DNA of 64,000 bases. It comes from Chelatococcus sp. YT9. Lineage in GTDB: Bacteria; Pseudomonadota; Alphaproteobacteria; Rhizobiales; Beijerinckiaceae. The stretch is taken from assembly GCF_018398315.1 (NCBI RefSeq), contig NZ_JAHBRW010000002.1, positions 1,224,637 to 1,288,636 on the forward strand, read 5' to 3'. Within the stretch, counting starts at the first letter, position 1. The number at the start of each line of letters is the position of its first letter. Positions 7,800-24,113 of the stretch are shown here, piece after piece. Made by a program: the position numbers and the translations under genes. The notes under the pieces were generated by a model. It had not been told where the DNA came from and ran no database searches. It was given only the letters and a program-made list of their open reading frames with translations.

Positions 7800-8528
7800 T
7801 CAAAGGCGCGTCAAACCGTATTGTTCAATGATCGAAACCATGCCGGCCGCTGCTTTTTCGCGGTGATCTTTATAAAGTTGTCTCGCGTCGTCGCTGTCTC
7901 CGCGCAGAATCGCATTGACCACTTCGCGATGCTCTCTCGTCGAGTCGACCGGTTTCGGCCGCAGGCGCAACGTGAACATCCGCGCGCGATGTGACTGTTC
8001 CCAGACGCCCATCACCATGGTTGCCAGTCGCTTATTGCCACAGAGTTCCACGAGGGAAAGATGGAAGCGTTCGTCCGCCTTCGCCCATTCGTTCAGATCA
8101 TCCCGGGCCATGGCGACTTCCATGTCGTCGCAAGCGCGCACCAGAGGTTCAATCTCCCCCTGGGATGGCCGCCGGCGAGCAAGCAGTTCGGTCGCGGTCA
8201 TCTCCAGGCTGATCATGATCTCATAGATTTCGCGCATATCCTGCGGTGAAAGAGGAAGCACGCGCATCCCGTGGCGTGGAACAACCTCAACAAGACCCTC
8301 CTGCGCAAGCCGAACAAGCGCCTCGCGTATCGGCGTTCTCGAAAGGCCCAGGTCGTTCGCAAGAACCTGTTCAAGAACAGCAATACCAGGCGCATAGTCG
8401 TTGTCGAGGATGCGCTGCTTGATCTTTGTGTATGCAACCTGAGCCGAGCGCTCGTTGGAACGCGTCGACAACGGCTCGGATACTGCCTCGGCTACGCCTG
8501 TCATCTTGAAACTCGTTAGCGCATCCAT
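7800..8528 (-). CDS. GntR-family transcriptional regulator, FCD (FadR-like) subfamily
   Basis: This encodes 242 residues. The N-terminal winged helix-turn-helix is at about residues 30-95 (LGLSRTPIREALVRLAQEGL and GMRVLPL). The C-terminal all-helical FCD ligand domain has likely metal ligands in the conserved pattern (DDMEVAMARDDLNEWAKADERFH, then HR and HRE near the end). Such proteins usually repress acid-catabolic genes and release DNA on binding a carboxylate. It faces the CoA-transferase operon downstream on the same strand, and the sugar-importer operon starts divergently on its other side. A perfect palindrome sits 13 bases before its ATG. Confidence 0.92.
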   Translation of the reverse strand: MDALTSFKMTGVAEAVSEPLSTRSNERSAQVAYTKIKQRILDNDYAPGIAVLEQVLANDLGLSRTPIREALVRLAQEGLVEVVPRHGMRVLPLSPQDMREIYEIMISLEMTATELLARRRPSQGEIEPLVRACDDMEVAMARDDLNEWAKADERFHLSLVELCGNKRLATMVMGVWEQSHRARMFTLRLRPKPVDSTREHREVVNAILRGDSDDARQLYKDHREKAAAGMVSIIEQYGLTRL

Positions 8529-8540
8529 ATGCTTGAGCGC

Positions 8541-8554
8541 TAACGTATACGTTA
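8541..8554. promoter_or_regulatory. Perfect 14-bp palindrome, likely GntR operator
   Basis: TAACGTATACGTTA is perfectly self-complementary and lies 13-26 bases upstream of the GntR start codon. FCD-type regulators commonly bind short palindromes with a GTATAC- or GTnnAC-like core, so autoregulation is the simplest reading. It may also affect the divergent gene at 8823. Confidence 0.6.
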
Positions 8555-8822
8555 ATGCGTCCGTGACAAGCTTTTTTTTTGAAGGCTGAACAAGGGGCAG
8601 ATAAGCACACCTGTCTAGGCGCCTGGCCGGGAGGGTTCCGGGGCCCGTGCCGGAGGCGCTCTCGTCCCGTTCTTCGATGGGCGTCGTGGCGGCTATTCGC
8701 CATCAGGCCACGTGAGCCGCTTGTATTACCCAAATTTTCCCAAGTCGCTTTGGCCGGCGGTTGCGAAGCGTAACCGTCGGCTGCCATGTTCGGCGCACAA
8801 CGATAAGATCGGGAGGATCACA

Positions 8823-10064
8823 ATGAGCTCAAAACGATTGTCCATGCGGCTGCTGGCTGTTGCCGCCGCCGTTTCGCTTGCCTCAACCGCGGCCATGGCA
8901 GCGCCTAAGACGGTCACTTTATGGCATGTGTTCAATCTCGACACCGACATGATCCATGGCGGCATCGAAGCCTTCAACAAGGCTCAGGACGAATATCGCA
9001 TTGAGGCGCGCGTGGTGCCTGCGACTTCGATGGTCACGGAACTGATCAAGGCGACGGCCACCGGCTCGGTGCCGGATCTCGCGACCCTCGACAATCCGGT
9101 CGTCGCGAGCTTCTCCGGCCAGGGAACCCTGACCGACCTGTCGCCGCTGGTCGCGAAGTCCGAGGTGGTGAAGCCTGAGATCTACTTCCAAGGGCCGTGG
9201 GCGTCGGCCCAGTGGCAAGGAAAGACCTATGGTGTGCCGCGCGACGCCAACACGCTGGCGCTCTACTACAATGCCGACATGTTCCGGGCGAAGGGCCTTG
9301 ATCCGGACAAACCGCCCCGCACCTGGTCGGAACTGCGCGCTGCAGCCGAGAAGCTGAGGGACCCGGCCAAGAATGTCTATGGCTTCGGCTTCAGCGCCAT
9401 TCAGGCCGAGGAGGGTGTCTTCCAGTTCTTACCGTTCCTAACCCAGGCGGGGGGATCGATCGACAAGCTCGACCAGCCCGAGGCAGCTGCTGCGCTCGAT
9501 TTCCTTGTCGAGATGATGAAAGCCGGCATCATCTCCAAGGATGTCATCAACCAGCGCCAGTATGAGGTTGCCAACACATTCATGGCCGGCAATACCGCGA
9601 TCGCCTTCGGCGGCCCGTGGGAATTGCCGCGCATGGAGCGGGAAGCGAAGTTCGACTGGCGGCTGACTCTGTTGCCGGTGAAGGATGACAAGAACATCGC
9701 CGCCTCGGCTCTCGGCGGCTATGTCTTCGTCGTGCCGAAGGGCGCCAAGCAACCTGAGGGCGCGTTCAAGTTCATCGAATTCATGTCGAACCCGAAGATC
9801 CTGAACGAGGGCTGGAAGACGGGGCGTCTGGCCCCACGTACCGATGTGAAGGTCGAGAACCCGCAGTGGCCGCAAGCCTACGGCATCTATCTCGAGCAGA
9901 TGCAGTCGGCCAAAGCGCGTGGACCCCATCCGCAATGGCCTGACATCTCCAAGGCGCTCCAGACGGCGATCCAGGAGGCTTTAACCGGTGCCAAGCCCTC
10001 GGCGCAGGCCTTGCAGGAAGCCGCGAAGAAGATCCAACCGATTCTCGCGAAGACGCCTCTCTGA
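8823..10064 (+). CDS. Sugar-type ABC transporter substrate-binding protein (family 1)
   Basis: This encodes 413 residues with a signal peptide (MSSKRLSMRLLAVAAAVSLA, cleavage after about AMA at residue 25). The mature chain starts APKTVTLWHVFN, typical of the UgpB/MalE-like family, with the hinge-region GKTYGVPRDANTLALYYN and the late MAGNTAIAFGGPW motif. The start at 8823 is chosen for the signal peptide and the GGGAGG just upstream. It is the first gene of a plus-strand operon with two permeases but no ATPase. The ligand is probably a sugar or polyol derivative. Confidence 0.92.
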   Translation: MSSKRLSMRLLAVAAAVSLASTAAMAAPKTVTLWHVFNLDTDMIHGGIEAFNKAQDEYRIEARVVPATSMVTELIKATATGSVPDLATLDNPVVASFSGQGTLTDLSPLVAKSEVVKPEIYFQGPWASAQWQGKTYGVPRDANTLALYYNADMFRAKGLDPDKPPRTWSELRAAAEKLRDPAKNVYGFGFSAIQAEEGVFQFLPFLTQAGGSIDKLDQPEAAAALDFLVEMMKAGIISKDVINQRQYEVANTFMAGNTAIAFGGPWELPRMEREAKFDWRLTLLPVKDDKNIAASALGGYVFVVPKGAKQPEGAFKFIEFMSNPKILNEGWKTGRLAPRTDVKVENPQWPQAYGIYLEQMQSAKARGPHPQWPDISKALQTAIQEALTGAKPSAQALQEAAKKIQPILAKTPL

Positions 10065-10144: not shown

Positions 10145-10161
10145 GCTTCTGGAGCTGATTG

Positions 10162-11046
10162 ATGGCTAAGGCTCAACAGCCTCTTCTTTATGTATTCCTG
10201 GCCATACCCGTCCTCTATCTCGTCGCGCTCGTCGGTTTTCCAGTGTTCTACAACCTGGTGATGAGCGTTCAGGAGGTGAATCTGGGCAATATCTCGTCGC
10301 TTGTCCGCCCCTTCATCGGTCTTGAGAACTACCGCGCGGTTATTGCAGACCCGTCTTTCCAGAAAGTTTTCGTCAATTCCATTCTTTTCGTCGGCGTCAA
10401 CGTCATCGCGCAACTCGTGATCGGGTTAGCGGTCGCCTTGTTTTTCTCAAGGGAGTTTCCGGGCGCGGGTCTTCTCCGCGGCCTACTGCTCGCGGCATGG
10501 ATGCTGCCCGCCCTGGTGGTCGGCGCCTTGTGGAAATGGATTTTCGCCACAGAATATGGCCTTGCTAACGCGGCCTTGACGTCGCTCGGCATCATCGATG
10601 CTGGCATCCACTGGCTGTCGGATCCGCGTGTTGCCCTGACGTCGGTTACGATCGCCAACATCTGGTTCGGCATGCCTTTCAGCATGATCCTGATTGCCGC
10701 GGCGCTGATCGCTATTCCGCGGGAACTCTATGAAGCGGCAGCGCTCGATGGCGCCGGTGCCGTCGCACGGTTTCGCTACATCACCTTGCCGAGCCTCACC
10801 GCCACTCTCCTGGCTGTCGCGTGTCTCGTCACCATCTATACCATGCGAGCGTTCGATCTTATCTTTGCGATGACGCAGGGCGGGCCACTTGACGCGAGCA
10901 ATGTGCTTCCGCTTCTCTCCTATCAATTCTCCTTCCAGCAGTTCAAATTCGGCATTGGCTCAGCCATCGGCACGTTCTCCTTCGTCATCGTCTTTGCCGT
11001 CGCGCTCCTATACGTGCGCACTCTGAAGAAGGAGGCTCTGTCGTGA
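10162..11046 (+). CDS. Sugar ABC transporter permease (MalF/UgpA type)
   Basis: This encodes 294 residues with about six membrane helices and the EAA loop (ELYEAAALDGAGAVARFRYI). I use the ATG at 10162, not the TTG one codon earlier. It forms the channel together with the permease whose GTG start overlaps its stop (GTGA at 11043-11046). The family length is normal. No ATP-binding subunit is encoded in this operon. Confidence 0.92.
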   Translation: MAKAQQPLLYVFLAIPVLYLVALVGFPVFYNLVMSVQEVNLGNISSLVRPFIGLENYRAVIADPSFQKVFVNSILFVGVNVIAQLVIGLAVALFFSREFPGAGLLRGLLLAAWMLPALVVGALWKWIFATEYGLANAALTSLGIIDAGIHWLSDPRVALTSVTIANIWFGMPFSMILIAAALIAIPRELYEAAALDGAGAVARFRYITLPSLTATLLAVACLVTIYTMRAFDLIFAMTQGGPLDASNVLPLLSYQFSFQQFKFGIGSAIGTFSFVIVFAVALLYVRTLKKEALS

Positions 11047-11882
11047 GCGCTCGCGTCGCCACTGCGCCCCGTATCGGCTGGCCCTATACGTTGATCGCGA
11101 TCTGCGGCGTTGCCGTCTATCTTTTCCCGATTTACTGGATGTTCACCTCGGGCCTTAAGACATCAGCGGAGATTTTTGCGAATCCTCCGACCCTTGTTCC
11201 GCAAAGACCAACACTCGACGCCTTTGCCCACGTCTTCGCGCGGGAAAATGTTGTCCGGTACCTTCGCAACAGCATCGCCATCGCGGTCCCCGTCACCGTT
11301 CTGACACTTGTGATGGGCGCGATGGGCGCCTATGCGATGAGCCGTCTCCGCAACCGGATCGTCGACGCCGCGCTGATCACTGTTCTCGTTCTGCAAGTAT
11401 TTCCCGAGGCACTTCTTGCGACGCCGATGTTCATCATCTTCCGGACGCTGGACATACTCAATACATTTTCGGCCGTGATCCTGGCGACGACCTCGAAGAC
11501 GCTCGCCTTCGCGCTCGTTGTGTTGCGTCCCATGTTCAGGCAGGTGCCGATCGAACTGGAGGAAGCCTCTCGCGTCGATGGTTGCAGTAATTGGCAGACG
11601 TTCTGGCGCATCGTGCTGCCTCTCATGCGCACGCCGCTTATTGTCGTTGGCACGCTGGCGTTCGTGCAGGCCTATGGCCAGTTCGTTTATGCGCTGACCC
11701 TGATGAGCGATCAGGAGCTGCAGCCCGCGACAGTCGGCATTTACAGCTTCGTCGGAGCCGAATACGCGGATTGGCATCGTGTGATGGCTTTTTCCTCCGT
11801 TTTCGTCGCCCCAATCATCATCCTTTTCCTCCTCATGCAGCGGAAAATCGTTGCCGGCCTCACCGCCGGCGCGCTGAAATGA
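11043..11882 (+). CDS. Sugar ABC transporter permease (MalG/UgpE type)
   Basis: This encodes 279 residues, six predicted helices and the EAA loop ([20 protein letters not shown]). It has a GTG start inside the stop of the first permease. The stop in turn overlaps the ATG of the ThuA-like gene (ATGA at 11879-11882), so transport and metabolism genes are translationally linked. It is the partner of the 10162 permease in the inner membrane. Confidence 0.92.
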
Positions 11883-12616
11883 AGGACGCCCCCATGCGTG
11901 TGACGATCTGGAACGAATTCCGCCACGAGAAAGCCAATCCGGCCGTGGCGGCCATCTATCCGCAGGGCATTCATAGCGCCCTTGAAGCCGGGCTGGCGCG
12001 GCACGACCTTGGTGCGATCCGTACCACCACTCTCGATGAGCCATCGCAAGGGCTGCCCGACGAACTGCTCGAGCAGACGGACGTGCTCGTCTGGTGGGGG
12101 CATCGCCATCATGATGAGGTGAGTGATGACACGGCGACGCGGGTCTGCGCTCGCGTTCATGCCGGCATGGGCCTCGTCGTCCTGCATTCCGGACATTTTT
12201 CTAAGGTTTTCAAGCGGCTGATGGGTACGCCTTGCACCCTCAAATGGCGGGCTGACGGGGAGCGCGAGCACATCTGGACCGTCGATCCGTCCCATCCGAT
12301 CGCGACGGGAATTCCTGCCCATTTCACGCTGGAGCGGGAGGAAATGTATGGCGAGCCGTTTGCCGTGCCGACGCCGGACGAGATCGTCTTTCTCGGCTGG
12401 TTCAAAGGCGGGGAGGCGTTCCGCAGCGGCTGCTGCTATAAGCGGGGCCTCGGCCGCATCTTCTATTTCCAGCCGGGACACGAGACCTTTCCAACTTATC
12501 ACGATCCGACAATTATCCATGTGATCGCCAACGGCATCCGTTGGGCCGCGCCAGTGGCCATGATGGAAAACCTCTTCGTGAACGAGCGCGTTCAACCGAC
12601 GGAGGCGATCCCGTGA
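11879..12616 (+). CDS. ThuA-like protein (trehalose-utilisation family)
   Basis: This encodes 245 residues with a class I glutamine-amidotransferase-like ThuA fold. Visible are [13 protein letters not shown] at the N-terminus, [34 protein letters not shown] and the C-terminal [19 protein letters not shown]. ThuA proteins take part in oxidation of disaccharides to keto-sugars in rhizobia, and relatives occur beside sugar importers and Gfo/Idh/MocA dehydrogenases. Both are present in this neighbourhood (oxidoreductase at 17247-18317). The start overlaps the permease stop; a second ATG at 11894 is possible. The substrate is unknown. Confidence 0.85.
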
Positions 12617-13833
12617 GCTCGCGTGTCTATGTGGCCGGCACCGCCGACACCAAGGGCGAGGAACTCGTCTATATCCGCGACCTCATCCGTGCGGAGGGCG
12701 TGGTGGCCGTCATTGCCGATCTCGCCACCCTGCCGCATGACGGTGTCGCCGATATCTCCGCCCGCGAGATCGCCAGCCATCACCCGGGCGGAGTTGACGC
12801 GGTCTTCACCGGCGATCGCGGTTCCGCGGTCGCCGCCATGACGGAGGCGTTCAGGCTTTTTCTTGCTGGACGCGATGATGTCGCCGGCACCATCGGGATC
12901 GGCGGTTCCGGGGGCACGGCTCTCGTCGCACCGGCGTTCCGGACGCTGCCGATCGGCACTCCGAAGCTGATCGTTTCGTCGGTGGCCTCCGGTCAGGTCG
13001 CCGGCTATGTCGGGCCGAGCGACATCGCGATGATGTATTCAGTGACGGACATTGCCGGCCTCAATCGCATCTCGCGGGTCGTCCTTGCCAATGCCGCCCA
13101 CGCGGTTGCGGGCATGGTGCGCCATCGCCTGGATCGCGGCGACGAGGGGGACGTGAAGCCGGCCGTCGGCGTCACGATGTTCGGGGTCACCACACCCTGT
13201 GTGACTGCCGTGACGGAGCGTCTTGCCGCGCGGTACGATTGTCTTGTGTTTCACGCTACAGGCACGGGCGGGCAGTCGATGGAGAAGCTCGCCGACTCAG
13301 GGCTTCTCTCGGCCGTGGCCGATCTCACCACAACCGAGGTCTGCGATAAGCTGATGGGTGGGATTTTTCCCTGCACGAACGATCGTTTCGGTGCGATCGC
13401 GCGGTCGCGAGTGCCCTATGTCGGGTCCTGCGGCGCGCTTGACATGGTGAATTTCGGCGCACCCGAGACGGTGCCGGATCGCTATATGGGTCGGCTGTTC
13501 TATCACCATAATCCGCAAGTCACGCTGATGCGTACCACGGCAGAGGAAAACGCCCTCATGGGGCAGTGGATCGGCGAACGGCTCAACCTCTGTGAAGGCG
13601 AAGTCAGGTTCCTGCTGCCGGAGGGAGGGGTTTCCCTGCTCGATGCGCCGGGCCAGGCCTTCCATGATCCTGAAGCGGATGCTGCGCTGTTCGATGCGCT
13701 TGAGCGCACGGTGAAGCAGAGCAGGCGGCGGAGGCTGCTGCGCGTTCCCTATGCCATCAATGATGGGAAATTTGCCGACGCCGTTGTTGAACAGCTCGAC
13801 GATTCAGTCCGGAGTGCCAGCTATGGCCGTTGA
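12613..13833 (+). CDS. Tm-1-like ATP-binding domain protein (UPF0261)
   Basis: This encodes 406 residues, the family's usual length. It opens with [20 protein letters not shown], then has the phosphate-binding-like [19 protein letters not shown] and [18 protein letters not shown], and ends with the C-terminal lobe. The family is the bacterial counterpart of the N-terminal half of the tomato Tm-1 protein; its biochemical activity is not settled. The GTG start overlaps the ThuA-like stop (GTGA). Downstream, the TIM-barrel protein corresponding to the other half of Tm-1 overlaps it by 11 bases, so the two probably form one complex or act in sequence. Confidence 0.9.
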
Positions 13834-14686
13834 CAGACAAGACCTCCTCGCCCGCTTTCAGGCCATGATCGCGCGGGGCGAACCCATCATCGGCGGTGGC
13901 GCGGGCACGGGTCTGTCGGCCAAATGCGAGGAAGCCGGCGGCATCGACCTCATCGTCATCTACAATTCAGGCCGCTACCGGATGGCGGGCCGTGGGTCTC
14001 TCGCCGGCGTGCTTGCCTATGGCAACGCCAACGAGATCGTCGTTGACATGGCTCGCGAGGTCCTGCCGGTCGTGCGGCACACGCCCGTTCTCGCGGGTGT
14101 GAACGGGACCGACCCGTTCTGCCATTTCGACAGTTTTCTCGACCATCTGAAAGCGATCGGCTTCGCCGGGGTGCAGAACTTCCCGACCGTCGGCCTGATC
14201 GATGGGGTGTTTCGCGCCAATCTGGAAGAGACCGGCATGAGCTACGATCTGGAGGTCGATCTCATCCGGCTCGCCCATGCCAAGAACATGCTGACGACGC
14301 CCTATGTCTTCAACGAGGATGACGCCCGTGCCATGACCGAAGCGGGCGCCGACATCATCGTCGCGCATATGGGCCTTACGACAGGAGGCGCGATCGGCGC
14401 CGAGACAGCGCTGACCCTCGACGATTGCATCCTGCGGATCGCCACAATCGCGTCCGCCGGGCGCGCCATCCGCAGCGATGTCATCGTACTCTGCCACGGC
14501 GGTCCGATTTCGACGCCCGAGGACGCGCGCTATGTGCTCGACCGGTGCCCGAGCTGCCATGGCTTTTATGGCGCCAGCAGCATGGAGCGCCTGCCATCGG
14601 AAATCGCTCTCACCGAGCAGACACGAAGCTTCAAGACGATCCGCCGCCGCGCGGCGACAGGTCCTAGAGATCCTCGGACGAACTGA
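13823..14686 (+). CDS. TIM-barrel 'phosphoenolpyruvate hydrolase-like' protein
   Basis: This encodes 287 residues. Diagnostic segments are [35 protein letters not shown] in outline at about 14-48, [16 protein letters not shown] at about 113-128 and the C-terminal [13 protein letters not shown]. It corresponds to the C-terminal half of eukaryotic Tm-1 proteins and to a family annotated as PEP hydrolase-like or TIM-barrel signal-transduction protein. True activity is uncertain. The start at 13823 overlaps the UPF0261 gene. It is homologous to the N-terminal domain of the regulator at 15382-17250 and to the truncated gene at 19160-19708. Confidence 0.88.
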
Positions 14687-14721: not shown

Positions 14722-15162
14722 ATGGCCAAAGTTTATGTGAGCGGAATCATCGACGCGCCCGTCGATCAGGTCTGGGACTATGCGCGGGACTACAACGGCC
14801 ATGGCGAGTGGCACCCCTTGATCGCGAAAAGCGAGGTCGAGGACGGCAAGCCCAGCGATCAGGTCGGCTGCGTCCGCAATTTCACCACGACGACCGGCGG
14901 CCACCTGCGCGAGCGCCTTTTGTCCTTTTCCGATCTCGATCGCAGCTTCACCTACAGCATTCTCGTCTCGCCCATGCCGATCGAGAACTATGTCGCGACC
15001 TTCGCGGTGAAGCCGATCACCGAGGGCAACAAGACCTTCGTGGAATGGTACGCGACCTTCGATGTCGGCCCGGACGACGAGGCGCGCATCCGCCAGCAGG
15101 TCGGGCGGGATACCTTTGGCGCGGGCATCGTAGCCTTGGAGAAAGCCGTGAAGGCGCGGTAG
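14722..15162 (+). CDS. SRPBCC-fold protein (polyketide cyclase/START-like)
   Basis: This encodes 146 residues and opens with the typical VYVSGIIDAPVDQVWDYARDYNGH, in which substrate enters a hydrophobic cavity. It continues with the beta-strand series of the fold and the C-terminal helix (GAGIVALEKAVKA). GGGAG lies upstream of the ATG. It is the last gene of the plus-strand operon and probably binds or converts a small product of the pathway. No catalytic residue can be assigned. Confidence 0.85.
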   Translation: MAKVYVSGIIDAPVDQVWDYARDYNGHGEWHPLIAKSEVEDGKPSDQVGCVRNFTTTTGGHLRERLLSFSDLDRSFTYSILVSPMPIENYVATFAVKPITEGNKTFVEWYATFDVGPDDEARIRQQVGRDTFGAGIVALEKAVKAR

Positions 15163-15381: not shown

Positions 15382-17250
15382 TCAGCGCTCACCGCCGGCA
15401 GCAAGAAGGCCGTAAGCCCTCATCTTGTTGTAGAGCGTCTTGCGCGAAATGCCGAGATAAGCGGCGGCGCGGCCTTTCCGGAACCGGTTTTCCCTAAGGC
15501 CGTGCAGGATCCAATCCATTTCCGATTTGAAACTGCCGATGGAAACGCGGTGGGCACTGAGCTGCGGAAGGTGATCTTCGGTGATCACGTCACCGGACGC
15601 AGCGAGCACCGCGTGCTCCAGAACCGCAGTGAGCTCGCGCAGATTCCCAGGCCAGGGGTGGTCCGCGAGAATCCGGAACGCGGAGGCGTCTAGGCTCTTC
15701 CGTAGGCTGGAATGTCGGCGTTCGATCGCGCGTAAAGCCTCCTCGATCAGTGTGGGAAGATCCTCAAGCCGTTCGCGCAAGGGTGGCAAGGTTATGGTGA
15801 AACAACCCAACCATTCGGCAAAGCGTCGATCAACCTCATGATCTGTCGAACTTCGGAGATCGCGCCCGGAGATACCGAGGCAGCGTACATTAAGAAGGAT
15901 CGAGCTGTCCCCGCCCATGCGCCAGAAGCGCCCGCTTTCCACCGCCTCGATGATCAAGGACTGGATCTCGCGCGGGAGCGTATCGACATCGTCGAGCATG
16001 AGCGACGAGCCATGGGCTATCTCCAGCCAGCCAAGCCGGGTCTTGCTGATTGTGGGATGTGCCCCCGCCATGCAGCCGAACAAGTCGAGCTGCAAGCGCT
16101 CGGCTGGTTGATTGGCGCATTGGATGGCGACAAGATCGCGCGCCTTGCGAGGCCCGGCGTTATGCAGCGCCCGCGCCACGTCTCTACGGCCGGATCCCGG
16201 CTCCCCGACAAGAACGATGGGATGATCAGTGCCCGTGAGGTGAGCGAACATGGCACGTGCGTCCTCCGCCGCCCGGGAATGCCCCCATAGCGCGAGCGGG
16301 AAGCGCCGCTTGCTGCGGTCGTGTTCCATGCCTTTTACCGTCTGACGCAGGACGCCGATTGCCTTGAACGCCGCGGTGACGACTTCGATGGCCGCTTCGG
16401 AGGGCACACGATCAATGGTCGATCCCCCTATATAGCCATCCACCTCGGCGATTTGGCAGAACTCCTCAAGCTGTCGCGGGCTGACGATAGGTCCGCCCTC
16501 AACAACGCAGCGCGTGCCCGGTGATATCGTCCGTACGCGTTGCGCGATTCGGTTGGCGATGAGAGCGGCTTCCTCGATTTTGAGATCGGAACTCGCGCCA
16601 AGAACTCCGCCAACATTCCACCCGAGATCAATATTGACCATTTCGATCCCTGCGGAGGCCGCCTCAGCCGCTTCCGCTTCGTTCTGGATATAAGCAAGAG
16701 TCGCAAGCCCCCGCGTCTTCGCCCGGCGCAGCAGGTCCAGTTCCCGCTTGAAACCGACGCCGCTCTGTTCGAGGAGCGAACGATAGGCGCCATCGATCAG
16801 CACCGCAGTTGGAAAGTTGGCAACACCGCCGAAGCCGCTCGCCGCTATCCGCTCGATGAGGGCATCGAGGTCAAGGCGCGGGTCAAAAGATGCGGCGCCA
16901 AAGAAGACAGGGACAGTCGCCCGCGGCAGGATCTCCGTTGGTGCGAAGCTCATCACAAATTCATTGCTGTCGCGCAGAGGGAGCATGGCGGCAATGGAGG
17001 GCTCGCCGATGCAACGCATCCGCCCCGCGGACAGGGCAAGGAGAAAATCCGCTCCACCGCGCGTGGCCGATTGCGCCGCCATGCCGGTGCCTATCGCCGC
17101 GCCGACGAGAAAGCGGCGTCGCGCCCCCCGGGTCACCGCTAGTTCATTCCTCAACCGATGCAGGGCTTCCTGCAGCGCGCCCTCCTGAGGTGCCACGTCC
17201 CGGCCGGTATCGTTGGCCTTGGCCATCCCCGAATCCCGGTGGTTCTTCAC
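15382..17250 (-). CDS. Regulator: TIM barrel fused to degenerate sigma-54-type AAA+ and Fis HTH
   Basis: This encodes 622 residues. Residues about 45-300 are a PEP hydrolase-like TIM barrel (GFGGVANFPTAVLIDG at 139-154, GGSTIDRVPSE at 275-285) homologous to the protein encoded at 13823-14686. Residues about 318-565 are a sigma-54-activator AAA+ domain, recognisable by PLRERLEDLP (490-499) and HPWPGNLREL (531-540). Residues 575-616 are a Fis-type HTH. Key motifs are altered: Walker A is GEPGSGRRD (Arg for Lys, 349-357), the GAFTGA loop is GAHPTI (396-401), and Walker B is LMLDDVD (Asp for the catalytic Glu). Sigma-54 contact and ATP hydrolysis are therefore doubtful. It probably senses a ligand through the TIM barrel and controls the convergent operon and/or its own. 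The GTG start overlaps the Gfo/Idh/MocA stop; an ATG at 17226 is an alternative. Confidence 0.88.
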   Translation of the reverse strand: MKNHRDSGMAKANDTGRDVAPQEGALQEALHRLRNELAVTRGARRRFLVGAAIGTGMAAQSATRGGADFLLALSAGRMRCIGEPSIAAMLPLRDSNEFVMSFAPTEILPRATVPVFFGAASFDPRLDLDALIERIAASGFGGVANFPTAVLIDGAYRSLLEQSGVGFKRELDLLRRAKTRGLATLAYIQNEAEAAEAASAGIEMVNIDLGWNVGGVLGASSDLKIEEAALIANRIAQRVRTISPGTRCVVEGGPIVSPRQLEEFCQIAEVDGYIGGSTIDRVPSEAAIEVVTAAFKAIGVLRQTVKGMEHDRSKRRFPLALWGHSRAAEDARAMFAHLTGTDHPIVLVGEPGSGRRDVARALHNAGPRKARDLVAIQCANQPAERLQLDLFGCMAGAHPTISKTRLGWLEIAHGSSLMLDDVDTLPREIQSLIIEAVESGRFWRMGGDSSILLNVRCLGISGRDLRSSTDHEVDRRFAEWLGCFTITLPPLRERLEDLPTLIEEALRAIERRHSSLRKSLDASAFRILADHPWPGNLRELTAVLEHAVLAASGDVITEDHLPQLSAHRVSIGSFKSEMDWILHGLRENRFRKGRAAAYLGISRKTLYNKMRAYGLLAAGGER

Positions 17251-18317
17251 CCGAATGAACGGATATACTCTTGAACGTTGATCGTCTGCCCGCGCCGCGC
17301 ACTTTCGATGCCGGCAAAGATCAGCGCCGCGGCATGGAGATTGTCCGCAACATTCGTCTCCATCTCCGGGCCGCCGTCAAGCCACGTGCAGAACTTTTCG
17401 ATGAGCCAGGTGTTGAGCCATTTGTTCTGAGTCATGAGCTGAATCTTCTGGCCTTGCCCTTCGCGGCAACGCTGGCGCTTGAGATCGCTGCGTGTGAAGA
17501 CTTCGATCTCGCGGCTGTTCAGGATCGCGGTGCCAAGCTCCCCGTCGACGCGGATGTATTCCTTGGTCCAGTCATTGAGGCCGACGGCGGCGGACGACGA
17601 TCCTTCATAGACACCGCGCACGCCGTTGGTGAAGGTCATCATCACGATACCGTCGGTGTCACCCGCATATTCCGCCCAGTCCGGTTTCCAGGTGCTGGCC
17701 GTCAACGTCTCGCACTGGGCGCCGGCGAGGTCGGCGACGAGATCGAGATGGTGCACCGCACCCTCGATCATCAGCGGATCAATCATGGTGTGCCGGAACA
17801 GGGCGCCCCAGCCCATGTGCTCGCGCATATCCGCGAAATAGCGGCAACTGATATTGTTGACTCGGCCGATCTGGCCAGACCGTACGATCTGCCGTAGCGT
17901 GGTCTTGTCCTGGTCGAAGCGATGACTCATGGTCACGGCCATCCTGCGGCCGGCCGCCTTGACCTTGCGCGCAATGCGGGCCGAGGCTTCCATGCTATCC
18001 GCAATCGGCTTTTCCGAAAGAATATCGATGCCGAATTCAATCGCGAGATCGACGACAGCCTCGTGGTGGTTCGGGGGCACGACGACGGTGCAGAAGTCCG
18101 CCTCCTTCGCATGATTAGCAAAGGCTGCATGCGGATCGGTGTAAGCCCGCTCCGGCGGCAAGTTCAGTACTCTGCGTCCGTATTCGACCGCCTTGGGGTC
18201 GATATCGACGACCGCGATTACCTCCACTGTGTCATCGGCGATGTTCGGGGCCAGCCATGTGGTGCACCAGCGGCTCCCGAAAAGGCCGACGCCAACGTGA
18301 ATGACCTTCTTCGTCAT
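17247..18317 (-). CDS. Gfo/Idh/MocA-family NAD(P)-dependent oxidoreductase
   Basis: This encodes 356 residues. The N-terminal Rossmann fold has VGVGLFGSRW and VVDIDPKAVEYG; the EKP motif is present (LSEKPIADSMEAS); the C-terminal alpha/beta domain follows. Members oxidise or reduce sugars, inositols and related polyols. GGAG precedes the ATG within the end of the cupin gene. It is co-transcribed with the cupin upstream and the regulator downstream. Together with the ThuA-like protein across the convergent junction it suggests a keto-sugar pathway. Confidence 0.92.
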   Translation of the reverse strand: MTKKVIHVGVGLFGSRWCTTWLAPNIADDTVEVIAVVDIDPKAVEYGRRVLNLPPERAYTDPHAAFANHAKEADFCTVVVPPNHHEAVVDLAIEFGIDILSEKPIADSMEASARIARKVKAAGRRMAVTMSHRFDQDKTTLRQIVRSGQIGRVNNISCRYFADMREHMGWGALFRHTMIDPLMIEGAVHHLDLVADLAGAQCETLTASTWKPDWAEYAGDTDGIVMMTFTNGVRGVYEGSSSAAVGLNDWTKEYIRVDGELGTAILNSREIEVFTRSDLKRQRCREGQGQKIQLMTQNKWLNTWLIEKFCTWLDGGPEMETNVADNLHAAALIFAGIESARRGQTINVQEYIRSFG

Positions 18318-18318
18318 T

Positions 18319-18957
18319 TCAAATTCTCTCCGGATGCGGCTGGGCGATGCCGTGCGTGTGGTTCCACAGATGGCCGATGCGCTTGTCGCGCTGAAGCGTC
18401 GTTTCGAAGAACACCGCCTTTATCGGTTCGGGCGCCAGCGGCATGTCGTGGTGATGGCCCATGCCGATGCTGACGCAATCGCCGGCGCTCATGTCCATGG
18501 CCTGCCCGCTGACAACCACTGTCGCGCGGCCCTCCAGAAGGATCCAGTATTCGTCGCAGTCGTGATAATGCGAATCGATCCGCGTCCTCTTGGGATAATC
18601 AACAGGGTCACCTGCATTGGTCGCAGCCGGGTCCTCCGTCACCCGGAAGATGCCGCATCCGCCGAGGTCCTCGCCCCAACTGCCGGCGAGCGTGACAATC
18701 TGGGCTGCGGGCGATCCGGGCTTGGCCTGCCAGGCCTTTTCACCGCCGATGAGATTGAGGTCGACGAATTGTCCCTCCTTCAGAATGAGGGAGCCTCCGC
18801 CTGCGAAGATCTGTGTCGTGCCGGTAGTGCAAAGCACACGTGTCTTGGCATGGCTTTGGCTGCGCGACACCGCGTCCCCGGCTCGCAGGTCAATGATCTC
18901 GAAGGCCCTGAGTTCGCACCAGTTTGGCGGGGCTTCATCATGGCGGTAGACGGGCAT
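18319..18957 (-). CDS. Cupin-domain protein
   Basis: This encodes about 212 residues from the ATG at 18957, which follows GCGGAGG. An upstream in-frame ATG at 19032 would add 25 residues but has no ribosome-binding sequence. The C-terminal cupin contains RIDSHYHDCDEYWILLEGRA (motif 1) and SAGDCVSIGMGHHHDMPL (motif 2), giving a full set of metal-ligand histidines and glutamate. The N-terminal half looks like a second, degenerate cupin (RVLCTTGTTQIFAGGG, FVDLNLIGG). It is first in the operon with the oxidoreductase and regulator. It may be an isomerase or lyase on the sugar intermediate; this is not certain. Confidence 0.82.
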   Translation of the reverse strand: MPVYRHDEAPPNWCELRAFEIIDLRAGDAVSRSQSHAKTRVLCTTGTTQIFAGGGSLILKEGQFVDLNLIGGEKAWQAKPGSPAAQIVTLAGSWGEDLGGCGIFRVTEDPAATNAGDPVDYPKRTRIDSHYHDCDEYWILLEGRATVVVSGQAMDMSAGDCVSIGMGHHHDMPLAPEPIKAVFFETTLQRDKRIGHLWNHTHGIAQPHPERI

Positions 18958-19159
18958 CTCAACCTCCGCAATCACTTCGGCTGGGCGCCTTCCGCGCCGG
19001 TCCAGCGCGATCGTGTTCCCCCGAAATGTCATTTATCGCTGATCGTCATAGCCAGCGTGGCACGCTTATCTCAGGTCCGCCGCTTGTGGTGAAGCAGGCG
19101 CCATGTGTAAGCTGGGTAAAATTGGGAAGGCGAGGAACGCCAGATCTTGGGAGGATCAG

Positions 19160-19708
19160 ATGGGCCTGGACGGAGCGGAAGCTCTGCTGGGGCGCGGCAC
19201 CGCCACGCAGTCTTGCCGCTTCCTCGACCGCTTGCCACAGAACGCAGACTTTCAGAACGAGGACATCCTCCTCATCTGCCCCTGGCTTGAAGGGCTTGAC
19301 CCCGACAAGGGACCATGGCTCGCCGCCCTGCCGATCCACGATTGCAATGCGTATCTCGACGGGGAGTGGACGTTCAACGCGTCGCCGGAGGAGCGCGAAC
19401 GTTGCTATTTCGGCGTCTTCGGCCTTGATCGCCTACGTTCGCAGGACGGGCTTTTCACACTGTTGCGCCGACGTGGAATTGACGCGATCACCAACCTACC
19501 CAGCATCACCGTCTTTGACGGCGCGACCGCGCAAACCTTGAGTTCTCTCGGCTTCGATGCAAACTCCGAAAGGCGGTTTCTCGATCAGGCAGAGCGACGC
19601 GGCTTTCGAACCGCGCATTGTTGTCGAGCGGAGCGGGGTTGTCCGGATCGTCCCGGAGCGCGCATTCTCCACACAGGTCCAGGACAGGCCTTCACGTTCA
19701 CCCGATAA
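19160..19708 (+). pseudogene. Truncated TIM-barrel (PEP hydrolase-like) gene
   Basis: This encodes 182 residues from an ATG at 19160 preceded by TTGGGAGGATCAG. The segment GIDAITNLPSITVFDG aligns with [16 protein letters not shown] of the 13823 gene and with the regulator's TIM barrel, and the following RRFLDQAERRGFRTA matches the next helix. Homology fades at PGARILHTGPG and the frame ends at TAA, about 100 residues short of the family length, so the last strands of the barrel are missing. It is either a decaying third copy or a short partial-barrel protein. It is divergent from the cupin gene. Confidence 0.6.
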
Positions 19709-20176: not shown

Positions 20177-21514
20177 TCAGGCTACCTCGATATGGACGCG
20201 GGGCGTGACTGCGGCGCGGGGAATCAAGGTCGAGACGACGGCGACGACCTCTCGCGCGCTCTTCGTCACACCACCGCCGCCGGCGGGACCGTTGGTGTAG
20301 AGAGTCTCGACCTCATTGCCGATCCGCACAGCGTCACGCAGTGTCTCGGTCCGGGCGACCACACGTGCCCTGACCTCCCGCGGTTCGAATCCCTCCAGGC
20401 CTCCCAGGACGTCGACGGCATTCACGCCGATCAGTTCGAAGCGGCTCTCGGTCATGGCGACGCCCGTCAGCTTCAGCCTTTCCGCCACGATGTCGAGGGC
20501 AAGCCGTGCCCGCGCCTGCGCGCCGGAACCTGCGTAGGAAATCTGGCCCTCTCCCGTGAAGCTGTCGCGATAACCCACCGAGACCTTGAGCCGGTCCGGC
20601 CGGGGGCGGCCGCGCCCGCCTGAGACTGCGATGCGGTCGGTGTCGATCTCCCGCAACTGCACCTGCGTGAAATCGGCGACCACGTCCGGCTGCAGATAGG
20701 CGGCCGGGTCGAGGACCTCATAGACGAGCTGTTCCTTGCAGGTCGCGACGGTGAGACGTCCGCCTGATCCTGGAACCTTGGTGAGGATGGCGGAGCCGTC
20801 TGGCTGCACCTCGGCGATCGGAAAGCCGAGGCGCGCGAGGTCCGGCACATCCTTGAATCCCGGATCCGCGAAATAGCCGCCGGTCACCTGCCCGGCGCAT
20901 TCGAGGAGATGGCCGATCACCGTGGCCTGGCCAAGAATCGTCCAGTCGATGGTGGACCAGCCGAAGCTGTGCACGAGCGGCGCGACGAACAGGGCCGGAT
21001 CGCTGATCCGCCCCGTGACGATCACCTGCGCGCCCGCCGCGAGTGCATCGAGAACCCCCTCGATGCCCAGATAGGCATTGGCGGAGATGACCCTGTCGCC
21101 AAGCGAGCCCACCGTGCCCGGCCTTTCGAGGAGCTCGCTCCTTTCGCGATCCAGCGCTTCCATCACGTCATCACCGGTGACGGCCGCGATCCTGAGACCG
21201 GTCAGGCCCAGCCGGCGGGCCGCGCGGGCGACTTCGCGGGCGGCCGCGATCGGATTGGCAGCCCCCATATTGGTGATGATCCGCACGCCGCGGGCGACAG
21301 AGCCCGGCAAGACCGCCTCCATCCGCTCGGTCAGGAGCGGATCGAAGCCGGCGTTGTTGTCGCGAAGCTTCGCCTCCTGCGCGAGCGCAATCGTCCTCTC
21401 CGCAAGGCATTCGAAGACGAGATAGTCGAGCGCACCACGCTCGACGAGCTCAACGGCGGGTTCGATCCGGTCACCCGAATAACCTGCTCCGGCTCCGATC
21501 CTGATCGGTCTCAT
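20177..21514 (-). CDS. AtuA-family protein (DUF1446)
   Basis: This encodes 445 residues. Opening IRIGAGAGYSGDRIEPAVEL and DYLVFECLAERTIALAQ are typical of the family, as are IITNMGAANPIAAAREVAR and GYFADPGFKDVPDLARLGFP. In Pseudomonas the atu genes break down acyclic terpenes, but many relatives sit beside hydantoinase-like or CoA-related genes with unknown roles. Here the C-terminal small domain is encoded as a separate downstream gene. Its neighbours HyuA and HyuB suggest action on a cyclic amide or keto compound rather than a terpene. Confidence 0.87.
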   Translation of the reverse strand: MRPIRIGAGAGYSGDRIEPAVELVERGALDYLVFECLAERTIALAQEAKLRDNNAGFDPLLTERMEAVLPGSVARGVRIITNMGAANPIAAAREVARAARRLGLTGLRIAAVTGDDVMEALDRERSELLERPGTVGSLGDRVISANAYLGIEGVLDALAAGAQVIVTGRISDPALFVAPLVHSFGWSTIDWTILGQATVIGHLLECAGQVTGGYFADPGFKDVPDLARLGFPIAEVQPDGSAILTKVPGSGGRLTVATCKEQLVYEVLDPAAYLQPDVVADFTQVQLREIDTDRIAVSGGRGRPRPDRLKVSVGYRDSFTGEGQISYAGSGAQARARLALDIVAERLKLTGVAMTESRFELIGVNAVDVLGGLEGFEPREVRARVVARTETLRDAVRIGNEVETLYTNGPAGGGGVTKSAREVVAVVSTLIPRAAVTPRVHIEVA

Positions 21515-21564
21515 GTTCTACCCAGATGCACGTCGAGGGCGTATGCGCAGCCGTGACGTTGGAC

Positions 21565-22284
21565 TTATCGTTGCTCGGATTTGGAGGCGGCGCGGCGCGC
21601 CTCCTCCTCACGTTCACGCAGGCGCTGCGTGACATCCACGCCCTGGCTGTTGCCGTCCCCGGAGATGGTCGACAGCATGAGGTCGGCGATCTCGCGGGCC
21701 GCGTCGTTGCCGCGGCTTTTCAGGCCCGCGGCGGCTGAACGCTTGTCCGCGTCGGCATAGGTCTGGCTCAGCTTGAACTTCGGCTCGAAGCTCGTCACCT
21801 CGAGCTCGAAGCCGATGATATGGGGCAACAGCGCCGCCCGGCGTTCCGGGCTGTAGCTCTCGAGCGGCCACTGCTGCGGCAGCTCGGCCTCGTTCACCCG
21901 CACGAGTTCGTCGATGATCGCGCTCGTGACCGCCTCACTGGGCGCCAGCCGCACCGGGCCGCTCACATGCACGACCGCGTAGTTCCAGGTCGGCGCGGCC
22001 GGATGGCCGGGCGTGTACCACTGCGCCGAGATATAGGCGTTCGGGCCATTGAACACGATCGTCGCCCGGGGATCTGCCTCGAGGGCGCGCCAATGCGGGT
22101 TTGCCCGCGAGAAATGGCCGCGGATCCGCACCAGGCGGTCATCGACCACTTCCGGCACGACCGGGATATGCGAGAATTGCAGCTCGTTCTCGAAGATCGA
22201 CACGACCGTTCCGAACTTGAGCCGCTTGACCAGTTCGACGCCTGCGGCATCGGGATAGGCATGTCGGCTGGCTCTGTAGAGCAT
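21565..22284 (-). CDS. PaiB-like FMN-binding protein
   Basis: This encodes 239 residues. N-terminal MLYRASRHAYPDAAGVELV and LQFSHIPVVPE, then IVFNGPNAYISAQWYTP, mark the FMN-binding split-barrel family named after Bacillus PaiB, often annotated as a negative transcriptional regulator. No DNA-binding domain is visible, so a flavin- or ligand-related role is at least as likely. It lies between hyuB and atuA in the operon. Confidence 0.87.
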   Translation of the reverse strand: MLYRASRHAYPDAAGVELVKRLKFGTVVSIFENELQFSHIPVVPEVVDDRLVRIRGHFSRANPHWRALEADPRATIVFNGPNAYISAQWYTPGHPAAPTWNYAVVHVSGPVRLAPSEAVTSAIIDELVRVNEAELPQQWPLESYSPERRAALLPHIIGFELEVTSFEPKFKLSQTYADADKRSAAAGLKSRGNDAAREIADLMLSTISGDGNSQGVDVTQRLREREEEARRAASKSEQR

Positions 22285-22325
22285 CCTGAATCCTTCTCGG
22301 GTCGGCAGTCGCGATCGAACGGCTC

Positions 22326-23993
22326 TTATCCGGGGCGGCCGGGATAATGCTCTGCGGCGAAGGCTCTCGTGATGATGCCGTCGGCGAGGTCTGCCGCGAT
22401 CCGCTCCGGCGCGCGGCGTGCCGGATCGCCCCAGCCGGCGCCGCCGCCGACGGACAATTCGACGATGTCGCCTTTCTTCAGGGGCACCACATCGGTGGTC
22501 GGGAGGTTGATCACCTCCTCGCCGCGCCAGATGCGCAGCGAACCGGTGGCCGCGTCGCCGCCGCCGCTCTTGCCGCGCGGGGGATAGAGGAAGTGATCGG
22601 AGTAGTAGCTCAGGACAACCCCGTCCTCGAGGATCTCGATCGCCCGGGAGAAGCCGACGCCGCCCCGGAATTCGCCTGCCCCGCAGCTGTCGGGTACGAG
22701 CCTGTAATGCCGCATGCGCAGGTGGGGATGGATCTGCTCGATGGATTCGATCGGCGTGTTCCGGCTGGAGCTGAGGACGCCGGCGAGCGCGTGGGCGCCG
22801 TCATAGCCGGGCGCGCCGCCGTAGCCGCCGCCCAGCACGTCGCCATAGATCCGCATGGGCGCGTTGTCGCGGGCCTGAGTGAGATAGAGCCCCGTCGTCG
22901 AATTGTATCCTTGCGCGGGCACACGCTGCGGGATGGCCTGGGACAGCGCATCGTGGATGGCATCGAGCACGCGATAGGATGCTTCGATGCGCGCGCGGAC
23001 CGGGCGGCCTGGCGACGGATTGATCAGCGAGCCCTCCGGCATCCGGATCGTGAGGGCGCGGTTGCAGCCGTCGTTGGCGGGGATCGTCTTGTCGGCCAGC
23101 ACGCTGCGCACGGCCGAGATCGCGGATGCGAGCGAGGAGGAGCGCGAGGAGTTGAACATGCTGGAGACCTGCGGAGCCGTGCCCGCGAAGTCGAGCGTCA
23201 TGGCGCCATCCGCCACGGTCACGGCGACGCGCACCGTGAGCGGCTCCGTGCCGCGCACGTCCGCGTCGATCGAGGCTTCACCGGTCCAGCGCCCGTCCGG
23301 GATGGTCGCGATCGCCGCCCGCATGCGTCGCTCCGCATAGAGCAGCGTCTCGGCCATCGCCTGCCGGACCGTCTGCGTCCCGACCCGGGCCGCCAGTTCC
23401 GTCACGCGCTCGACCCCGGTGCGGTTGGCGGCGAGCTGCGCATAGAAGTCGCCGCGGCCGAGTTCGGCTGTGCGGACATTGGCGAAGATCAGCCGGTCGA
23501 CCGGCCCGCCGTGCAGGTCCCGCGACATCTCGATGAGAAGCGGCGGGATGATGATGCCTTCCTGGATGAGCTCGTTCGCATCGATATTGATGCCCGCGCC
23601 GCCGCCGCCGACATCGAGATGATGCGCCGTGTTGCCGGCCCAGCCGAGAAGCGCGCCGTCGATGATGATCGGCTGGAACAGGATGAAGTCGTTGAGATGC
23701 TGGCCGCCGGCATAGGGATCGTTGAGCAGGATGGCGTGATCTGGCCCGACCCCGGACAGGTCGAGCTGGGCGGCGGAAGCCCGGAAAGCCTCGCTCAGCC
23801 CGCCGTTGTGTATCGGGATCATCTCGGCCTGGGCAATGACGTTGCCCTCGGCATCCAGCAGGGCGGTCGCGCAGTCGCGGGCCTCGCGGACGATCGTGGA
23901 GAACGCCGAGCGCGTCAGGATCGCCCCCATTTCATCAGCTATCGCGTGAAACGCGTTGGCCAGGATCGCGAGCTGGGTCGCCTCGTAACTCAT
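22326..23993 (-). CDS. hyuB: Hydantoinase B/oxoprolinase B family protein
   Basis: This encodes 555 residues. Visible are AILANAFHAIADEMGAIL at the N-terminus, HNGGLSEAFRASAAQL, ILLNDPYAGGQHLNDF and GAGWGDPARR near the end, all typical of HyuB. With HyuA it makes an ATP-dependent enzyme that opens hydantoins or 5-oxoproline, or carboxylates ketones such as acetone or acetophenone in related families. GAGGAG precedes the ATG. Its partner HyuA is encoded about 7 kb upstream in the same orientation. The region upstream (24001-24113) is AT-rich with three copies of AATTCGAA, so it may have its own promoter. Confidence 0.92.
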   Translation of the reverse strand: MSYEATQLAILANAFHAIADEMGAILTRSAFSTIVREARDCATALLDAEGNVIAQAEMIPIHNGGLSEAFRASAAQLDLSGVGPDHAILLNDPYAGGQHLNDFILFQPIIIDGALLGWAGNTAHHLDVGGGGAGINIDANELIQEGIIIPPLLIEMSRDLHGGPVDRLIFANVRTAELGRGDFYAQLAANRTGVERVTELAARVGTQTVRQAMAETLLYAERRMRAAIATIPDGRWTGEASIDADVRGTEPLTVRVAVTVADGAMTLDFAGTAPQVSSMFNSSRSSSLASAISAVRSVLADKTIPANDGCNRALTIRMPEGSLINPSPGRPVRARIEASYRVLDAIHDALSQAIPQRVPAQGYNSTTGLYLTQARDNAPMRIYGDVLGGGYGGAPGYDGAHALAGVLSSSRNTPIESIEQIHPHLRMRHYRLVPDSCGAGEFRGGVGFSRAIEILEDGVVLSYYSDHFLYPPRGKSGGGDAATGSLRIWRGEEVINLPTTDVVPLKKGDIVELSVGGGAGWGDPARRAPERIAADLADGIITRAFAAEHYPGRPG

Positions 23994-24038
23994 CTTTGAC
24001 GGTCTCCTCGGGGACGCAATCGCCTCGTCCCCTCATTG

Positions 24039-24110
24039 AATTCGAAGACTACTTGAGCCCGACAATGCGGAGAATTCGAAAATTCCGCCCGATTGAGAGG
24101 CTAATTCGAA
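24039..24110. promoter_or_regulatory. Three AATTCGAA repeats upstream of hyuB
   Basis: AATTCGAA occurs at 24039-24046, 24073-24080 and 24103-24110. The middle copy runs on as AATTCGAAAATTC and is followed by CCGCCCGATTGAG. A related stretch (CGAAAATTCGACCCCATTAAG) is found at the hyuA-lysR promoter. It is probably a shared LysR operator set and an internal promoter for hyuB. Confidence 0.5.
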
Positions 24111-24113
24111 GGA

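Follow-up and report, generated by a model that had tools for sequence, protein, structure and literature searches.

REG, a regulator gene of Chelatococcus sp. YT9, seems to encode a relative of the sigma-54 enhancer-binding proteins that carries an enzyme-derived sensor and has departed from sigma-54, beside a surviving sister lineage with intact motifs and the same predicted operator. The gene lies on the minus strand (15382..17250) of a stretch of 64,000 nucleotides (contig NZ_JAHBRW010000002.1, positions 1,224,637 to 1,288,636), referred to here as the window, whose numbering is used throughout. From sequence comparisons, it is probable that REG responds to a ligand and regulates its own catabolic cluster independently of sigma-54; this cluster also encodes a catalytic-type protein of the same barrel family (ENZ) and a second degenerate barrel (HALF).

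The REG open reading frame (ORF) runs from a GTG start at 17250 to 15382, encodes 622 amino acids with no internal stop, and shares its first four bases with the end of the oxidoreductase gene upstream. The first-pass annotation of this DNA had described a fusion of a TIM barrel, a sigma-54-type AAA+ domain and a Fis-type helix-turn-helix (HTH), with altered active motifs. Pfam and the motif positions bear this out: a degenerate PF09370 barrel (PEP_hydrolase, amino acids 43-298; 250.3 bits, curated cut-off 33.8) is followed by a degenerate AAA+ domain with its lid (322-564), comprising Sigma54_activat (322-471; 96.8 bits, curated cut-off 20.2) and AAA_lid_14 (492-564), and by the HTH (HTH_8, 577-613), the last two also above their curated cut-offs. 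In this C-terminal half, GEPGSGRR starts at residue 349, GAHPTI at 396, LDDVD at 419, PLRERLEDLP at 490 and WPGNLREL at 533, and the Arg finger segment FREDLxxRL, retained in five of five intact relatives, is replaced by EVDRRFAEWLGCF. Among the hallmarks of sigma-54 enhancer-binding proteins, REG shows the AAA+ domain and the Fis HTH, in homology and in fold, and lacks the GAFTGA loop, the Walker A Lys and the Walker B Asp-Glu pair; loss of GAFTGA with retention of AAA+ and HTH is the sequence pattern of relatives of the TyrR/HupR/VpsR type. An AlphaFold2 model built from 29 rows has a mean predicted local distance difference test score (pLDDT) of 82.8 and a predicted template modelling score of 0.49, and its domain arrangement is therefore unreliable. 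Within it, AAA+ residues 331-460 have a pLDDT of 90-96; the model matches the AAA+ domain of FleQ at 1.8 Å and, over the barrel, PDB 2p10 at 5.5 Å with a template modelling (TM) score of 0.84 by target length; as modelled, the AAA+ fold is preserved in REG despite the motif loss. The host genome carries a sigma-54 gene (PF04552 match), so the loss of sigma-54 would be specific to REG, and it also has other strong Sigma54_activat matches. Another sigma-54-type protein of the host (L052, C1:4124770-4125261) likewise has no GAFTGA, the loop being shortened, and retains the Walker A Lys and IDEVG.

Homologues of the fusion were collected from 397 genomes of the window's order, 18 of which, the window's own included, contain it at full length, and from 385 genomes of the class (nine with the fusion, seven of them new). 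A search of 398 genomes of the phylum with an intact-member query, three candidates being scored per genome, gave at least three full-length matches, all in the window's order among the matches listed. With four genome records and ten plasmid records (80 matched, 36 covered at least 80%, ten were taken and six well-covered ones left out) the fused set comprises 39 proteins; the 14 records are all from Alphaproteobacteria, and the remaining proteins share the window's class. The first-pass annotation had allowed for local errors, should the close homologues all have intact motifs. The nearest ones fetched, from Chelatococcus, Terrarubrum and Bosea (86%, 75% and 68% identity to REG), all show Arg where Walker A has Lys, with GAHP or GMHP standing where GAFT is expected; the altered motifs of REG are not local errors. 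Intact homologues occur only in a distant clade, at 39-42% identity to REG: five of the 39 keep every motif (GKE-type Walker A, GAFTGA, LFLDEIG and FREDLxxRL). In the other 34, GAFTGA is lost through an aligned three-residue gap (22) or substitution (12), and the Walker B Asp-Glu survives in a single row, that of Terrarubrum (L039). The motif losses, judged by their spread over 34 of 39 homologues, are old. No further intact member was found in the plasmid search (16 records, none above 41% identity to L009) or in two family searches of 3 and 15 genomes; a third, of 20 genomes, yielded one.

In a tree of AAA+ domains the 39 fused proteins stand apart from 15 other enhancer-binding proteins (support 100/98; one of the 15, L052, is the host protein without GAFTGA), and in a barrel tree the regulator barrels stand apart from the enzymes (100/100). 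The only row labelled as an enzyme on the regulator side was a broken regulator copy with internal stops (L023, genome G171), later dropped. By both domain trees, the fusion arose once. Two species of one genus (L015 and L017; genomes G282 and G310) have one an intact and the other a degenerate fused regulator, which suggests that these clusters move by horizontal transfer. The first-pass annotation was unsure whether the architecture had been described. It is in fact not new: public annotation already names the fused proteins as PEP hydrolase family or sigma-54-dependent Fis family regulators. Earlier Pfam text on the PF09370 domain reportedly mentions sigma-54 activators, and Studholme and Dixon reportedly surveyed such architectures in 2003.

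The barrel of REG was compared with 27 stand-alone PF09370 rows, which represent 26 genes, as the window's own enzyme entered twice. His178 and His221 are present in 27/27 enzyme rows and in 0/39 regulators, where the first position is Asn (28), Asp (7) or another residue (4), and the second is Glu (33), Gly (5) or Val (1); in REG they are Asp208 and Glu251. The scaffold glycines and several charged residues of the enzymes persist. From their invariance, both His are likely to be catalytic in the enzymes, and because they are replaced in all 39 regulators the REG barrel is probably a ligand sensor, in line with the proposal of the first-pass annotation that an enzyme fold had become one. The intact sigma-54 members carry the same replacements, so the sensor barrel would predate or coincide with the fusion, sigma-54 having been lost later. 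It is unlikely that the barrel is still an enzyme with altered chemistry, making REG a bifunctional trigger enzyme, although much of the scaffold (Gly-Gly-Pro, Arg, Glu and Ser positions) is invariant in REG too and the replacing residues, mostly Asn or Asp and Glu, could be catalytic: both enzyme-invariant His are gone throughout the set, and the cluster encodes, next to REG, an enzyme-type member of the family. The host has a second stand-alone gene of the enzyme type (L002, C2:182461-183261); it lies far from the cluster and branches separately in the barrel tree.

The predicted operator came from an unsupervised motif search of the 330 bp before the conserved HALF core in 28 representatives. 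The motif, TACCCAATTTTACCCA (reverse strand TGGGTAAAATTGGGTA), consists of two GGGTA blocks ten bases apart, and its log-likelihood was 226 as against 48-53 in three single-base shuffles, which had fewer restarts. At a threshold of 14 bits, chosen by ourselves, at least one site is present in 39/39 loci, and intact and degenerate loci share it; six loci added later all contain it. In 35 of the 39 the best-placed site is at most about 115 bp away from the 5′ end of HALF as estimated. Three matches were found in the 729,667 bases of one single-base shuffle per locus, and no match in the 177,686 bases of 47 other loci that had been fetched. Outside the training regions, a site was found 80-120 bp before the transporter gene in all eight window-clade loci for which that gene was fetched. 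A matrix re-learned without the window clade still finds both window sites and no other of at least 10 bits in the 64 kb; with it, the transporter sites of L039 and L096 reach only 14 bits and those of L035, L037 and L040 13.9-14.1; one re-learned without the intact clade still detects the sites of that clade.

In the window, one copy (TGGGTAAAATTGGGAA, 19113..19128, plus strand) lies between the divergent cupin-oxidoreductase-REG genes and HALF, and the other (TGGGAAAATTTGGGTA, 8727..8742, minus strand) precedes the transporter-UPF0261-enzyme operon, 81-96 bp before the ATG at 8823. A 16-base pattern written to cover these two sites has no third exact match in the host genome (6.74 Mb) and one more at one mismatch, as has a reversed control pattern. 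In the HTH, the recognition segment SRKTLYNK hardly varies among intact and degenerate members, one later row being without the exact string. Another factor might bind the operator while REG acts elsewhere, the obvious candidate being the product of the GntR gene (7800-8528) that adjoins the transporter operon; this is improbable, as a GntR-like gene occurs in only 4/39 mapped loci, as against 39/39 for REG, HALF and an operator site, and as the REG recognition helix is so well conserved.

Promoters of the -24/-12 type were sought as TGGCAC-N5-TTGC on both strands, GG and GC being required, in the 39 loci; most of these span 17-26 kb and two are shorter (7.8 and 9.9 kb), and of the window the first 30 kb were scanned. 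All five intact loci have a ten-out-of-ten match: four of these matches stand 80-84 bp ahead of the UPF0261 start as mapped, and the fifth precedes a same-strand run of ORFs that ends in UPF0261. No such match was found in the 34 degenerate loci, the first 30 kb of the window included, and in the 350 bp ahead of their mapped cluster genes even sites with a single mismatch are absent; elsewhere in these loci one-mismatch sites occur as they do in shuffles (0.6-1.5 per locus, three loci shuffled). The six later loci, near relatives of the earlier ones, gave a perfect site in the single intact locus, before UPF0261, and in none of the five degenerate ones, so that the pooled count is 6/6 against 0/39 (naive Fisher 1e-7, kinship ignored). 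The promoter search suggested by the first-pass annotation therefore yielded no perfect site near REG but perfect ones at its intact relatives, and the idea of a former sigma-54 activator gains support from this sister clade and its matching promoters. The same data make it very unlikely that REG still serves the sigma-54 pathway, for example as a dominant-negative or hetero-oligomeric partner of another enhancer-binding protein. The retained AAA+ fold, the sigma-54 gene and the further activator matches of the host would suit such a role, but no degenerate cluster has a perfect -24/-12 site and no other protein matching the AAA part was found in the cluster loci searched.

As for the order of events, L058 (genome G397) is the earliest-branching degenerate row of the AAA tree. 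It has no GAFTGA and retains Walker A, the Arg finger and a Walker B that reads Glu-Glu, which hints that the ATPase was lost after the contact with sigma-54. Repeated, independent loss of GAFTGA was considered and rejected: the AAA tree, rooted on enhancer-binding proteins, places the intact clade beside all 34 degenerate members (100/97), and the AAA data reject the nested grouping that was tried (p 0.001; the grouping was named after seeing the tree). A single loss is compatible with the barrel data (not rejected, p 0.42) and is retained as the simplest account, not a proven one.

The ratio of nonsynonymous to synonymous substitution rates (dN/dS) was computed for 14 pairs: it does not exceed 0.16 for the barrel and is 0.03-0.29 for the AAA+ domain, with a maximum of 0.59 over all domains and one value not computable. 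The gene is maintained. That REG is decaying, its AAA+ domain functionless, is scarcely credible: of 11 degenerate pairs, eight have an AAA+ dN 1.9-3.3 times that of the barrel (all three intact pairs 0.3-0.9 times) and one genome has the broken copy mentioned above (L023), but AAA+ dN/dS is low in all 14 pairs, the residues of the recognition helix vary little or not at all, and operator and neighbourhood are conserved. The open frames of the 39 rows do not count against decay, since long open frames were selected.

HALF (19160..19708, plus strand; the ATG is estimated and the longer listed ORF begins at 19103) is a degenerate stand-alone PF09370 barrel that looks like a fragment, with a family score of 27.9 against the cut-off of 33.8. 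A mere scrap of the enzyme gene is excluded, since a relative is present in 39/39 loci; the iterated profile inflates the later scores, but a seed profile of 18 sequences had already found all 39. HALF and the regulator are on opposite strands in 36 of the 39, and no more than 130 bp apart in 24. Among the 397 genomes of the order, it was found in 18/18 with a full-length regulator (E 4.4e-37 or better) and in 0/379 without, a count in which the profile, built from many of the same proteins, favours them. The best matches in the 379 regulator-free genomes were 5.1e-31 or weaker and, among the matches listed, start at profile position 34 or beyond, like those of enzymes. The model of HALF (23 rows, pLDDT 85.2) has 2p10 as its best Foldseek match, over about half of the barrel (a modest TM of 0.48 by query length). 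Our guess is that HALF is a partner of the sensor barrel of REG. HALF, the shared operator and the motif-intact versions of the architecture had all gone unseen in the first-pass annotation.

According to the mechanism that we favour, the barrel of REG, derived from a PF09370 enzyme, would most likely bind the substrate or product of ENZ, or a close relative of these, without turning it over. The AAA+ domain, having neither Walker A Lys, Walker B Glu, Arg finger nor GAFTGA, would neither hydrolyse ATP nor contact sigma-54, and probably acts as a scaffold for oligomerisation and signal transfer. The Fis-type HTH would bind TGGGTAAAATTGGGWA at two sites, as its conservation suggests, one before the transporter-ThuA-UPF0261-ENZ operon and the other between cupin-GFO-REG and HALF (GFO being the oxidoreductase gene). 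The ancestral fused activator would have split early into one lineage that retained sigma-54 and the -24/-12 promoter, and another that kept the operator and lost both. As to polarity, REG as an activator that works with the housekeeping polymerase at the transporter-enzyme operon stands at about even, repression relieved by the ligand is a fair way below that, and activation or repression according to the site is unlikely. More tentatively, HALF may pair with the REG barrel and so set the response. There would then be a circuit of three barrels, namely the PF09370 enzyme, the PF09370 sensor of the transcription factor and the truncated HALF as its obligate partner, in which the same circuit and operator work with sigma-54 in one lineage and without it in the other; we regard this as possible but doubtful.

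Several observations weigh against a sigma-54-independent REG acting at this operator after a single loss. The Walker A Lys survives in 10 of the 34 degenerate rows, and nucleotide binding may persist in some of them. The unrooted full-length tree nests the intact clade among degenerate ones, implying several losses, and fast-evolving AAA domains could have misled the rejection of that grouping. The intact members are one clade and several degenerate ones are near relatives, so that the promoter contrast amounts to one or two independent observations, not 45. The operator is missing from the 5′ end of HALF in 4/39 loci, lying before UPF0261 in L097, about 1 kb further upstream in L116, and being weak and elsewhere in L113 and L119. 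Its assignment to REG consists of co-occurrence and the conserved recognition helix only, and the neighbouring GntR protein is an alternative binder. Consensus scans, which are weak evidence, found no sigma-70-like promoter close to either operator, with zero matches in 18950-19250 and in 8500-8850 a single weak one (9/12 at 8506-8533), at the start of the GntR gene and 194-221 bp before the 8727 operator.

The genes around REG fit a catabolic cluster. The probable target operon, on the plus strand, begins with the solute-binding protein of an ABC transporter (8823..10064), followed by two permeases (10159-11046 and 11043-11882), a ThuA-like protein (11879..12616; start estimated, listed ORF from 11591), a UPF0261/Tm-1-like protein (12619..13833; start estimated, listed ORF from 12541) and ENZ (13823..14686; ATG estimated, listed ORF from 13751), a catalytic-type barrel with both invariant His. 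An SRPBCC (polyketide cyclase-like) gene (14722..15162, plus strand) is convergent with REG. On the minus strand, a cupin-domain gene (18319..19032) and a Gfo/Idh/MocA oxidoreductase gene (GFO, 17247..18317), the latter directly upstream of REG, form a probable operon that REG ends. The sugar ABC transporter, Gfo/Idh/MocA, cupin and ThuA genes, together with the ribokinase and glycoside hydrolase or arabinofuranosidase genes in relatives' clusters, point to sugar or sugar-acid catabolism. By eye only, the minus strand adjoining this cluster (20177-25673) has genes similar to those of AtuA/DUF1446, hydantoinase B and a thiamine-diphosphate decarboxylase.

Among known proteins, a close one to the sensor is Mll9387 of Mesorhizobium loti (PDB 2p10, PF09370, a putative phosphonopyruvate hydrolase), which has the same TIM barrel (phmmer E 1e-38); Mll9387 is stand-alone and of the enzyme type, whereas the REG barrel is fused and has a non-enzyme His pattern. 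Plasmid pMLa carries a PF09370 enzyme gene, which we take to be that of Mll9387, with two genes between it and a fused regulator. On pNGR234a, NGR_RS30945, annotated as a sigma-54-dependent Fis family regulator, has the same fusion and operator as the window and shares its neighbours (half-barrel, UPF0261, enzyme, cupin and Gfo/Idh/MocA). Its GAFTGA loop is shortened, not substituted as in REG, and its Walker A Lys is retained; its sigma-54 label is, by sequence, unsupported by its own motifs. Of the rhizobial plasmid members examined, the three labelled in this way (L042, L043 and L047) are without the sigma-54 contact loop, and their annotation is open to question. The pNGR234a homologue is presumably y4pA, so that a Bradyrhizobium gene called y4pA may belong to the family. 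That gene, of 1,755 bp, is named as a second sigma-54 factor copy in the available part of one report (PMC9069715). A literature search, whose coverage excluded most subscription papers, found no paper on the fused family, the operator or HALF.

In plants, Tm-1-like proteins fuse UPF0261 to PF09370, which is called a TIM-barrel signal transduction domain and is said to co-evolve with UPF0261 in the accessible part of the source (PMC5028733). The partners are those that are encoded side by side in the window; the plant fusion is described there with these two domains only, without AAA+ or HTH, and bacterial proteins are grouped by tree and domain structure in figures that may show the fusion (PMC5028733). 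The ligand sensed by REG would offer a handle on the chemistry of the UPF0261/PF09370 pair, which plants have joined in the Tm-1 resistance protein.

TyrR, DhaR, HupR, NtrC and VpsR have sensor domains that differ from that of REG. In the available sections of two papers, TyrR, DhaR and HupR are described as having lost GAFTGA and moved to sigma-70, and such a loss or use of sigma-70 is reported or proposed for VpsR and for the NtrC proteins of Rhodobacter and Caulobacter (PMC3162934, PMC10274813). As far as these sections go, REG resembles TyrR, DhaR, HupR, VpsR and R. capsulatus and Caulobacter NtrC in having a sigma-54-type AAA+ domain and an HTH, with GAFTGA substituted or deleted, in cells that contain sigma-54. 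According to the same sections R. capsulatus NtrC needs ATP binding (PMC3162934, PMC10274813), whereas REG is also without the Walker A Lys, the Walker B Glu and the Arg finger. The departure of enhancer-binding proteins from sigma-54 has until now been known from scattered cases. If the circuit of three barrels is real, it would provide a natural before-and-after pair for a change of polymerase in a bacterial enhancer circuit. Unlike the TyrR/HupR/VpsR group, REG has a surviving sister clade whose members keep intact motifs, share the predicted operator and have a sigma-54 promoter, and a single family with both states, one operator and a similar neighbourhood makes motor loss, promoter loss and operator retention directly comparable.

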